DNA of 64,000 nucleotides, from assembly GCA_947649205.1 (NCBI GenBank), contig CANSQM010000010.1:1-64000 (forward strand), written 5' to 3'. The notes under the pieces are model-generated. The model was not told where the DNA came from. It saw nothing but the letters and a program-made list of their open reading frames with translations, and ran no database searches. The position numbers were made by a program, and so were the translations under genes. Position 1 is the first letter of the stretch; each line of letters opens with the position of its first letter. Shown piece after piece: positions 5,481 to 60,080 of the stretch. This stretch comes from an uncultured Enterorhabdus sp. (GTDB taxonomy: Bacteria > Actinomycetota > Coriobacteriia > Coriobacteriales > Eggerthellaceae).

Positions 5481-7058
5481 ATGGCTAAGGGAACCTTCGG
5501 CGTCACCACGCCCATCTACTACATCAACGCCGCGCCCCATCTGGGCACCGCCTACACTACGGTGGCGGCCGACACCATCACCCGCTACCAGCGCATGAAC
5601 GGCTACGACGTGTCGTTCGTCACCGGTACCGACGAGCATGGCCAGAAGATCGCCGAGACCGCCGAGAAGAACGCCATGACCCCCCAGGCCTGGTGCGATT
5701 CTTTGGCCCCGGCCTTTACCGACGCGTGGAAGACGCTGAATATCGACTACACGAACTTCGTGCGCACCACCGAGGATCGCCAGACCCGCGCGGTGCAGAA
5801 GTTTTGGGGCGCCCTCCACGATGCCGGCTGGCTGTACAAGAGCGCCTACGAGGGCTGGTACTGCGTCCATGAGGAGACCTACTACGCCGAGAGCGACCTG
5901 GAGAAGAACGACGAGGGCGAGTTCGTCTGCCCCGACTGCAAGCGCCCCGTGCGCTACGAGGCCTCCGGCGAGGAGAACTGGTTCTTCAAGCTGTCCGAGT
6001 TCCAGGACCGTCTGCTGGCCTTCTACGACGAGCACCCCGACTTCATTCGTCCCGTCACGCGTCGAAACGAGATCGTCTCCTTCGTGAAGGGTGGCCTGAA
6101 CGACCTGTCCATCTCCCGTTCCAGCTTCGACTGGGGCATTCCCGTGCCGTGGGATGAGGGTCACGTGTTCTACGTGTGGGCCGATGCGCTCATCGCCTAC
6201 CTCACCGGCATCGGCTACGGCGACGACGAGCGCGAGGCCGAGTTCGACGGCCGCTGGCCCATCCAGTACCACTTCGTGGGCAAGGACATCACCCGCTTCC
6301 ACTGCGTGATCTGGCCGGCCATGCTCATGGCCGCCGGCATGCCCATCACCCACACGGTGTTCGGCCACGGTTTCCTGCTCACCAAGGGCGAGAAGATGTC
6401 GAAGTCCAAGGGCAACGGGCTTATGCCCGCCGATCTGGTGAAGGTCTTCGGTGTGGATGCCTACCGCTACTACTTCATGAGCGATGTGCAGTTCGGCCAT
6501 GACGGCTCCATCTCCATGGAGCGCATGGTGCAGGTGTACAACGCCGATCTGGCCAACACCTGGGGCAACCTGGTTTCTCGCGTGACCAACATGACCACGA
6601 AGTACTTCGAGGGCCGCGTGCCCGAGGCACCGGCCGCCGCGGCCGAGAACCCCCTGCGCGAGATCGCCGATACGCTGTACGCGGACTATGACGCCTGCAT
6701 GGCCGAGGTGGACTTCACCGGGGCGGCCGCGGCTGTGCAGAAACTCGCGAGCCGCGTGAACCTCTACGTGGAGGAAAGTGCCCCGTGGGCCCTGGCCAAG
6801 GATCCTGCGCGTGCCGATGAGCTGGCCGGCGTGCTGTACAACTGCTTGGAGGCCATCCGCATCATCGCGCTGTACCTGGCGCCGTTCATGCCCAACACGT
6901 CGGCCGAGGTGTTCCGCCGCCTGGGTCTGGGCGACATCGCGGAGGTGACCGACATTAAGGACGCCACGGCCTGGGGCCAGCTTCCCGCCAGCGTGGCCGT
7001 GGAGGTGGGCGAGCCCCTGTTCCCGCGCCTGGACGTGGACAACCTGCCGGAGCTGTAA
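5481..7058 (+). CDS. metG: Methionyl-tRNA synthetase
   Basis: Class I aminoacyl-tRNA synthetase that charges tRNA-Met, cytoplasmic. 525 aa. The Rossmann-fold signature appears as PHLGTAY (residues 19-25, the HIGH motif) and KMSKSKGN (about 305-312). A single CPDC pair in the connective region (CVHEETYYAESDL...CPDCK) marks the form with a reduced zinc knuckle. It ends after the anticodon-binding helical domain and has no C-terminal tRNA-binding EMAP/Trbp111 extension, so it is the short bacterial type. It stands alone after the sensor kinase with its own extended -10 promoter at 5398-5406. Confidence 0.97.
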   Translation: MAKGTFGVTTPIYYINAAPHLGTAYTTVAADTITRYQRMNGYDVSFVTGTDEHGQKIAETAEKNAMTPQAWCDSLAPAFTDAWKTLNIDYTNFVRTTEDRQTRAVQKFWGALHDAGWLYKSAYEGWYCVHEETYYAESDLEKNDEGEFVCPDCKRPVRYEASGEENWFFKLSEFQDRLLAFYDEHPDFIRPVTRRNEIVSFVKGGLNDLSISRSSFDWGIPVPWDEGHVFYVWADALIAYLTGIGYGDDEREAEFDGRWPIQYHFVGKDITRFHCVIWPAMLMAAGMPITHTVFGHGFLLTKGEKMSKSKGNGLMPADLVKVFGVDAYRYYFMSDVQFGHDGSISMERMVQVYNADLANTWGNLVSRVTNMTTKYFEGRVPEAPAAAAENPLREIADTLYADYDACMAEVDFTGAAAAVQKLASRVNLYVEESAPWALAKDPARADELAGVLYNCLEAIRIIALYLAPFMPNTSAEVFRRLGLGDIAEVTDIKDATAWGQLPASVAVEVGEPLFPRLDVDNLPEL

Positions 7059-7083
7059 GAAAGTAATACGTTAGTTTGTATGC

Positions 7084-7089
7084 TATAAT
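7084..7089 (+). promoter_or_regulatory. Extended -10 (TGC-TATAAT) driving the small peptide gene
   Basis: TGCTATAAT at 7081-7089 is a perfect -10 hexamer with the TGn extension; transcription would begin near 7096 and give about 53 nt of leader before the peptide ATG at 7149. The leader holds GCGGGCGGCGC (7115-7125), an exact complement of GCGCCGCCCGC at 7308-7318 downstream of the peptide, so the 5' and 3' parts of this mRNA can pair over 11 bp. Confidence 0.65.
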
Positions 7090-7148
7090 GAGCGAGCACT
7101 AGCAAAGTCCGACTGCGGGCGGCGCTTCGAGAGATTGGAGTACCGCCT

Positions 7149-7280
7149 ATGTTTGAACAGGTTCTTTTTGCCGCAGCCGCGGCCGCCACCATAGCAGGCT
7201 TCCTTTTGGAAGTCTGGCGAGAAACGAAATCAATCGTGCAGGAGGATGACGAGGGGAGAAACAGAAAAGGCCAGCGCTAA
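7149..7280 (+). CDS. Small membrane peptide, candidate type I toxin
   Basis: A 43-residue ORF that starts MFEQVLFAAAAAATIAGF and ends in a charged tail (EDDEGRNRKGQR). One hydrophobic helix (about residues 5-21) followed by a polar tail is the layout of type I toxins of the TxpA / Fst / holin-like kind; there is no clear sequence identity to a named toxin. ATTGGAG lies 7 nt before the ATG, and a strong extended -10 promoter is at 7084-7089. The stop codon sits in the loop of a hairpin (7265-7290) that is also the terminator of a convergent small RNA promoted from 7355-7360. The arrangement, not the peptide sequence, is the main argument. It could instead be an ordinary small membrane protein. 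Confidence 0.55.
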   Translation: MFEQVLFAAAAAATIAGFLLEVWRETKSIVQEDDEGRNRKGQR

Positions 7281-7348
7281 CTGACCTTTTCCGAATCGAT
7301 AACACCCGCGCCGCCCGCCTAGGCTCACAACCACCGGGCTTTGCTGGT
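7255..7348 (-). ncRNA. Antisense small RNA opposite the 3' end of the peptide gene (sRNA-A)
   Basis: On the minus strand a perfect -10 (TATAAT, plus-strand 7355-7360), with a weak TAGCAA at -35 and 17-nt spacing, would start an RNA near 7348. It reads through a GCAAAGCCCG...CGGGCGGCGC hairpin and ends at an AAAAGG/CCTTTT-based terminator stem (7265-7290) followed by a pyrimidine tract, about 95 nt in all. It overlaps the end of the peptide mRNA. A paralogous RNA with the same promoter-core-terminator order lies at 62992-63083. Confidence 0.6.
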
Positions 7349-7354
7349 GCAACC

Positions 7355-7383
7355 ATTATAGCAGCTTGGGAAGCGGATTGCTA
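7355..7383 (-). promoter_or_regulatory. Promoter of sRNA-A
   Basis: Minus-strand TATAAT at 7355-7360, 17-nt spacer, TAGCAA at 7378-7383. It overlaps the leader of the downstream TatD-family gene (start 7393) on the other strand. Confidence 0.6.
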
Positions 7384-7392
7384 GGAAACTGC

Positions 7393-8388
7393 ATGGATAA
7401 CGACGAGCCGATATTCTACGACGGGAAGTTTCGCCAGAAGCGCAAGCACGGGGTGTGGCGCGAGGTGGAGGCGCCGGTGCTCGAGGGGCCGGTGGCCGAC
7501 ACCCACGCGCACCTGCAGATGCTGCGCGACCCGGCGCTGGAGCTGGCCCGCTGCGCGATGCACGGCGTGACCTTCGTGGAAACCATCGTGGATCCCGCCG
7601 ATGACGGCTTCGCCACCTTCGAGGCGCTGCCGGGCTGGCTTATGGAAGCCTCGGCCGACCTGCGGGCCATGATGGCCGCCGAAGGGACCGCCGAAGGAAC
7701 GGGCGGGGGAGAGCGCCGGGCGCTGCCCCCGCTTCCTGCCGTGCGCATTGCCGCCGGCGTGCATCCGCACAACGCCAAGGACCTCACGGACGATCTGGTC
7801 GCGGCCCTGGGTGAGCGCCTGCGGGATCGCCGGGTGAGCGCCGTGGGCGAGATCGGGCTCGACTACCACTACGACTTGTCGCCCCGCCCGGTGCAGCGCG
7901 AGGTGTTCCGGACCCAGATTCGCCTGGCGAAGGCTGCGGGGCTGCCCGTCGTCCTTCACATGCGCGAGGCCCACGACGACGGCTTCGCCATTCTGGCCGA
8001 GGAGGGCTTTCCCGAGGCCGGCACCTTGCTGCACTGTTTCAACTTGGATGGGGTCGAGGTGGCCCGCTGGGTGGAAGCGGGCTGCTTCATCGCCTTCGGC
8101 GGCCCGCTCACGTTCAAGCGCGCCGAGGAAGTGCGCGAGGCGGCCCGGATAGTGCCGGTGAACCGCCTGCTCACCGAGACCGATTCCCCCTACATGACCC
8201 CCGAGCCCCTGCGCGGTACCTTGTGCGGGCCGGCCCACGTGGTGTGGACTGCCGACGTGCTCTGCGCGGTGCTCGGCGCCGATACGCCCGAGGCCCGCGC
8301 GACCCTGCTTGCCCAACTGTACGCCAATGCCGAGGCGCTGCTCAACCGCGTCCCCACCCCCTGGCAGAAGGAGCCCTCCCATGCATAG
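7393..8388 (+). CDS. TatD-family metal-dependent hydrolase
   Basis: Amidohydrolase-fold protein of the TatD DNase family. Metal-binding and active-site segments are all present: DTHAHLQM (first HxH), GVHPHNAKD, GEIGLDYHYD, LHMREAHDDG, LLHCFN and TETDSPYMTPEP near the C-terminus. At 331 aa it is longer than the usual 260 because of an N-terminal extension of about 45 residues and a Glu/Gly-rich insertion after RAMMAAEG. TatD proteins of this type are 3'-5' exonucleases or D-aminoacyl-tRNA-related; the exact substrate is not evident. The ATG at 7393 (AGGAAACTGC in front) was preferred to a TTG 27 nt upstream. The next gene overlaps its end by 8 nt, so the two are co-translated. Confidence 0.88.
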   Translation: MDNDEPIFYDGKFRQKRKHGVWREVEAPVLEGPVADTHAHLQMLRDPALELARCAMHGVTFVETIVDPADDGFATFEALPGWLMEASADLRAMMAAEGTAEGTGGGERRALPPLPAVRIAAGVHPHNAKDLTDDLVAALGERLRDRRVSAVGEIGLDYHYDLSPRPVQREVFRTQIRLAKAAGLPVVLHMREAHDDGFAILAEEGFPEAGTLLHCFNLDGVEVARWVEAGCFIAFGGPLTFKRAEEVREAARIVPVNRLLTETDSPYMTPEPLRGTLCGPAHVVWTADVLCAVLGADTPEARATLLAQLYANAEALLNRVPTPWQKEPSHA

Positions 8389-60065: not shown

Positions 60066-60080
60066 CTTGATATAATCAAG
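60066..60080. promoter_or_regulatory. Palindrome containing the -10 between regulator and coaX
   Basis: CTTGAT-ATA-ATCAAG is a perfect 15-bp palindrome that holds TATAAT (60071-60076) for coaX; GTGTT/AACAC (about 60086-60102) forms a second inverted repeat just downstream. Likely shared control site of the divergent genes. Confidence 0.5.

Follow-up and report, generated by a model that had tools for sequence, protein, structure and literature searches.

A conserved leader-tail pairing in a putative type I toxin-antitoxin-like module of Coriobacteriales

The par/Fst system (RNA I/RNA II of pAD1) and its Fst/Ldr superfamily combine a convergently transcribed toxin mRNA with a small antisense RNA, a small peptide whose single helix often ends in a tryptophan and whose C-terminus is charged, and a leader stem-loop that hides the Shine-Dalgarno sequence (PMC7472228). 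In AapA/IsoA of Helicobacter and in hok/sok, leader hairpins hiding the Shine-Dalgarno sequence are accompanied by long-distance pairing between the 5′ and 3′ parts of the mRNA (PMC6733600). For the experimentally studied AapA, this 5′-3′ interaction is the OFF state (PMC6733600). In Bacillus, the convergent RNAs of TxpA/RatA and BsrG/SR4 overlap at their 3′ ends, and SR4 reinforces from a distance the stem in which the ribosome site of BsrG is hidden (PMC4147584). In 2025, type I systems were described as known only from Proteobacteria, Firmicutes and Tenericutes, to which the authors added Cyanobacteria and no Actinomycetota (PMC12390103). Among open-licence papers we found no description of a system like the one reported here in this group of bacteria, or of any type I system in Actinomycetota.

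Here we analysed a module of about 300 bp within a 64,000 nt stretch of DNA (from here: the window) from an Adlercreutzia genome, whose nearest named records are A. muris DSM 29508 and A. caecimuris B7. The module lies between metG (5481-7058) and a tatD-like gene starting at 7393, and its G+C content is 53% compared to 66% for the window. A preliminary description had likened it to fst/txpA/hok-type loci. The likeness holds for the pairing between leader and tail, but not for three other traits. The repeats are inverted instead of direct (DRa/DRb in par/Fst), the terminator serves the antisense RNA only instead of both directions, and the tail takes the anti-Shine-Dalgarno arm of the leader, unlike the tails of AapA/hok mRNAs, which carry the anti-Shine-Dalgarno themselves and form an inert pairing.

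With par/Fst the module shares the predicted convergent arrangement of toxin mRNA and small antisense RNA, the type of peptide and, as predicted by folding, the leader stem-loop; the antisense RNA, however, copies the leader and for that reason could not pair with it. From AapA/IsoA and hok/sok it differs moreover in that the antisense RNA would cover the 3′ end of the mRNA, and an AapA/hok-type hiding of the Shine-Dalgarno sequence by the tail was not seen when the 86 loci were folded. The resemblance to TxpA/RatA and BsrG/SR4 is one of anatomy. Neither peptide family appeared among the database matches of the relatives, and the conserved two-helix link between tail and leader, which distinguishes the module from TxpA/BsrG, would explain an action at a distance such as that of SR4. 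Since at least one defining feature of each of these three groups tested negative, we place the module in none of them.

Architecture of the locus and its relatives

For comparison we used the loci of 86 relatives in Coriobacteriales, all of them complete or nearly so. They share one order of parts: a −10 box, the 5′ arms of two leader-tail helices (H1a and H2a), the Shine-Dalgarno sequence, the ORF, a hairpin that encloses the stop codon or lies close to it, the 3′ arm H2b, a loop, the 3′ arm H1b and an inverted −10 box. The preliminary description had let its proposal depend on conservation of the peptide and RNA as a pair in Coriobacteriia, and this is what the 86 relatives show; they likewise support the anatomy of two putative RNAs that had been claimed.

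An extended −10 promoter for the peptide and an opposing TATAAT had been reported, and both are present as the sequence TGCTATAAT, at 7081-7089 on the forward strand for the peptide mRNA and at 7363-7355 on the reverse strand for the antisense RNA. The putative transcripts would start at about 7096 and 7348, respectively. The pattern TGnTATAAT occurs three times on both strands of the 64 kb, and two of these instances are the convergent pair flanking the peptide. The third perfect instance, at 60068-60076 on the forward strand, is situated about 70 nt 5′ of an ORF starting with MLLAIDIGNTHTVIGAYDG, which by eye is pantothenate-kinase-like. In nearly all of the 86 relatives the sense −10 box precedes the start codon by 53-64 nt, and in most of them the antisense box is located 45-69 nt 3′ of H2b. 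The TG extension is found at the antisense box of 61 loci versus 40 for the sense box, and the −35 match of the antisense promoter is above random and better than that of the sense promoter. By these sequence matches, the antisense promoter looks stronger than the sense promoter.

The ORF at 7149-7280 (forward strand), preceded by a good Shine-Dalgarno sequence, encodes the 43-aa peptide MFEQVLFAAAAAATIAGFLLEVWRETKSIVQEDDEGRNRKGQR with one predicted membrane helix and a charged C-terminus. A hairpin at 7262-7293 encloses the end of this ORF. As had been proposed, the TAA stop codon is within its loop, yet the structure resembles an intrinsic terminator only on the antisense strand, where hairpin and U-rich tail together span 7253-7293 (reverse strand). 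Its predicted energy is −19.9 kcal/mol on this strand but −10.9 kcal/mol on the sense strand, which has a C×A mismatch and no U-tract. Of the 78 loci that were scored, 54 have a U-tract next to the hairpin on the antisense strand, and a single locus has one on the sense strand. A bidirectional terminator, which we had expected from par, was rejected on these counts. Hence, the sense RNA should continue into the tail, while the antisense RNA should stop at the hairpin. A sense terminator 3′ of the tail, sought in the 86 loci, was scored in 7 versus 4 in shuffled sequence, and none was established; the mRNA of the window may run on into the next gene.

The putative antisense RNA would thus comprise about 95 nt (7254-7348, reverse strand) and be complementary throughout to the mRNA tail and the end of the ORF. 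Because the ends of the module are inverted repeats, the 5′ half of this RNA is nearly identical in sequence to the leader and at the same time fully complementary to the tail. Its promoter box, terminator and spacing are all conserved among the relatives. The genome from which the window was taken contains two paralogs of the module, and within this genome the duplex of an antisense RNA with its own tail was predicted at about −169 to −192, versus −77 to −100 with the other tails.

Pairing of the mRNA leader with its tail

An exact complementarity between 7115-7125 and 7308-7318 had been pointed out and was confirmed, the two segments being reverse complements at 11 of 11 positions. They constitute helix 2, with H2a (GCGGGCGGCGC, 7115-7125) as the 5′ arm and H2b (7308-7318) in the tail, both on the forward strand. 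The complementarity extends beyond this first claim: a further 16 bp are formed by H1a (GCACTAGCAAAGTCCG, 7096-7111), at the putative extreme 5′ end of the mRNA, with H1b (7335-7350), again on the forward strand, and this helix 1 shows compensatory changes among the relatives. H2b and H1b are separated by the tail loop CCTAGGCTCACAACCA (7319-7334, forward strand). This loop lacks TTAA in the window. Among the relatives the loop measures about 17 nt and contains TTAA in 30 of 86 loci compared to 4.4 expected by shuffling, and many relatives have there the YUNR-type motif GUUAAC.

For the window, the duplex energy of leader and tail is −54, a value matched by 19 of 1000 random segment pairs from this GC-rich sequence, so that the single locus is merely suggestive. 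The comparative evidence across the relatives makes the predicted pairing secure. In a swap test on all 86 loci, which is an unselected test of the pairing, the mean duplex energy was −54.5 kcal/mol with the locus's own tail and −46.4 kcal/mol with swapped tails (best of 2000 permutations: −48.2). In addition, the 23 pairs of both helices were compared in 53 distinct ungapped cases. Here, 98.0% of the cells were paired, double changes occurred at 10 pairs, and 92 cells were doubly changed versus a shuffled mean of 28.4; pairing was lost when the partners were slid by 1-3 columns. Pairing was itself among the criteria by which these helix blocks were selected, and they represent 53 of 70 distinct loci; the shuffle and swap controls correct for relatedness only incompletely.

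The same cells contain 126 G·U but 11 A·C combinations, which together with the double compensatory changes places the pairing in the mRNA strand. The alternative of an antisense-strand pairing was considered and rejected: the same regions taken on that strand gave a mean duplex energy of −47.4 compared to −54.5, in line with the ratio of A·C to G·U cells.

A possible opening of the ribosome site by the tail

The leader was predicted to fold into a hairpin at 7117-7148 (forward strand), in which H2a, as the outer arm, is paired with the Shine-Dalgarno region (GGAG, 7137-7140) and with the nucleotides preceding the AUG. Over the 86 loci the local hairpin has a mean energy of −18.4 kcal/mol and a mean z of −3.5, with z below −1 in 84 of them; its own covariation is modest. 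As H2a takes part in both, the leader hairpin and helix 2 are mutually exclusive. The predicted energy for opening the region from the Shine-Dalgarno sequence to the AUG is 8.0 kcal/mol with the tail, 13.0 kcal/mol without it and 12.2 kcal/mol with a shuffled tail. In 81 of the 86 loci the cost of opening falls by more than 1 kcal/mol when the tail is included, and in no locus does it rise by that much.

On this basis we propose a type I toxin-antitoxin-like module in which the mRNA makes its ribosome site accessible through its own tail, unless that tail is blocked by the antisense RNA, a reading to which we assign a probability of roughly 55%. Both helices, the leader hairpin, the antisense terminator, the spacing of the promoter boxes and purifying selection were obtained by sequence comparison and folding; we infer the production of both RNAs, the identity of the ON state, cleavage by RNase III and, from the kind of system, the toxicity of the peptide. 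ON and OFF states were assigned from the folding energies calculated for RNAs some 250 nt long. On sequence grounds, the leader-tail pairing and the conservation of the module are well supported.

In the proposed course of events, the mRNA would be transcribed from about 7096, through the hairpin at the end of the ORF and into the tail (7308-7350). In the nascent mRNA the Shine-Dalgarno sequence would be masked by the leader hairpin, which is the OFF state. Transcription of the tail would then let H1b pair with H1a, which is free to serve as a toehold, and let H2b expel the strand opposite H2a from the leader hairpin, so that the ribosome site becomes accessible (ON). As a near-copy of the leader, the convergent antisense RNA would pair with the tail over its full length and more strongly than the leader does. 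With the tail occupied, the leader hairpin would remain closed and the long duplex could be cut. A drop in the supply of antisense RNA would let the membrane peptide be produced and the cell be slowed or killed.

Alternatively, the module may be of type I but, as in hok and AapA, with a 5′-3′ pairing that stores the mRNA in an inert form, to be activated when trimming of the 3′ end removes the tail, the antisense RNA acting mainly through a duplex that is degraded. In the AapA and hok systems studied, such pairing is indeed the OFF state (PMC6733600), the position of H1a at the very 5′ end would in addition shield the mRNA, and the Shine-Dalgarno region is predicted to stay mostly paired even when the tail is present (0.25 unpaired). 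We nevertheless consider this possibility unlikely, because the partner of the tail is the anti-Shine-Dalgarno arm instead of the Shine-Dalgarno sequence. According to the folding predictions, an mRNA that has lost its tail keeps the leader hairpin and has a ribosome site that is harder to open, so that trimming would be expected to close it.

Returning to the opening by the tail, its most specific form, which we put forward tentatively and with less confidence than the general one, would be a natural cis-acting toehold switch: the 3′ tail would activate its own toxin mRNA by strand displacement, and the antisense RNA would serve as an anti-trigger that copies the leader and never touches the ribosome site. 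In this form, a single RNA frame would control several unrelated peptides in an order of Actinomycetota.

Peptides, distribution and implications

The peptides of the window's class are small and hydrophobic (<60 aa), with 28-56 aa, a single helix and the loose pattern ..vLEILyALAAlATIAgFvLEvWREyK...DDEGR; their best 17-residue hydropathy has a mean of 2.01 and a minimum of 1.22. Among the relatives the median dN/dS is 0.37, and 99% of 129 pairs, which are not independent of each other, are below 1. By this measure the peptide is under purifying selection. That it is not a known toxin, as claimed initially, agrees with our searches: no convincing match to a known family was found in Pfam, NCBIfam, PHROGs, PADLOC, PDB or Rfam. 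The Pfam matches of 43 members included no model of Fst or another known type I toxin, and NCBIfam gave a single weak match, of one member to DqlB (E 0.023).

Of 138 genomes of the family, 38 contained relatives detected with a profile of the peptide; at the level of the order it was 61 of 397 genomes, and the weakest matches among these may be due to chance. No peptide relative was detected outside Coriobacteriales among 396 genomes sampled across the phylum. A tblastn search of plasmid and phage records with a typed consensus peptide gave no match, and no relative was found in viral contigs searched with peptide patterns. Eighteen matches of viral contigs to a leader DNA pattern were dismissed as chance hits with no tail beside them.

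Within Coriobacteriales the family is scattered, with up to five copies per genome, and copies in one genome are strongly diverged from each other. Three Adlercreutzia genomes carry the module at a single site. In six others the gap between metG and tatD is at most about 120 nt and lacks the module, which points to gain or loss as one unit. By eye, a hisE-like or leuB-like gene is located beside several copies in different genera (L007, L009, L012, L014, L139, G001:C1:1583832, G003:C9:76251, G058:C283 and G060:C21), while the copy of the window is beside metG.

Incomplete copies were also observed. L008 (G005:C1:2248935, positions 1300-1800) is an orphan 3′ half, in which tail, terminator hairpin and antisense promoter are intact but the leader is missing along with most of the peptide. 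L112 (G009:C1:148522) has a leader and a peptide with an altered C-terminus, and no tail or antisense promoter was found; under the proposed switch it would therefore stay off. Apparently decayed are furthermore G003:C9:76251 (compared to its near relative G001:C1:1583832), L139, L209 and L218, which have a recognisable leader and a peptide frame that is frameshifted or lost.

The RNA frame is not restricted to one peptide. A covariance model of the leader (R1) recovered it around at least three further peptide classes (MLKEVLILVLTALPNWMALALMGLDRYERWK..., MLKEILNFVLYGLPAWVAAVASLLPLLL... and MDSFNLIAGLCSILSFLMAAYDW...). The leader-tail duplexes of the modules found with R1 have energies of −46 to −60 kcal/mol, and small membrane peptides that look unrelated are framed in this way in L124, L208, L210, L212, L213, L216, L217, L219, L220, L223 and L224. 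The weakest matches of the model (E above about 1e-4) include false positives in coding sequence, for instance L225-L227, as well as L221 and L222 near 8e-5. Since one frame holds several peptide classes, the RNA control is the more conserved part, and a search with the RNA model finds modules that are missed by peptide searches.

Purifying selection and the one site shared by three Adlercreutzia genomes would also fit a small regulatory membrane peptide that is no toxin and has a normal role in the cell envelope or in the stress response under tight antisense control. We regard this as improbable: the scattered multi-copy distribution and the empty sites fit a toxin-antitoxin system better, and the tight double control of expression, a decayed copy that keeps the antisense half and the exchange of the peptide within one RNA frame speak against it as well. 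A small MITE-like mobile repeat, with the peptide and promoters being incidental, would account for inverted repeat ends, multiple copies and presence or absence at the metG-tatD site, but is highly improbable given the divergence of copies within one genome, the dN/dS of the ORF and repeats that consistently differ by G·U-compatible changes, for which DNA ends recognised by a transposase would have no need.

Taken together, the results suggest a previously unrecognised toxin-antitoxin-like gene family in Coriobacteriales. If this is true, the range of type I systems would be extended to Actinomycetota through an order of common gut bacteria, and a new RNA logic would be added, in which the tail of an mRNA opens its ribosome site and the antisense RNA acts as a copy of the leader. 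Searches with RNA models are also relevant to how common such systems are.
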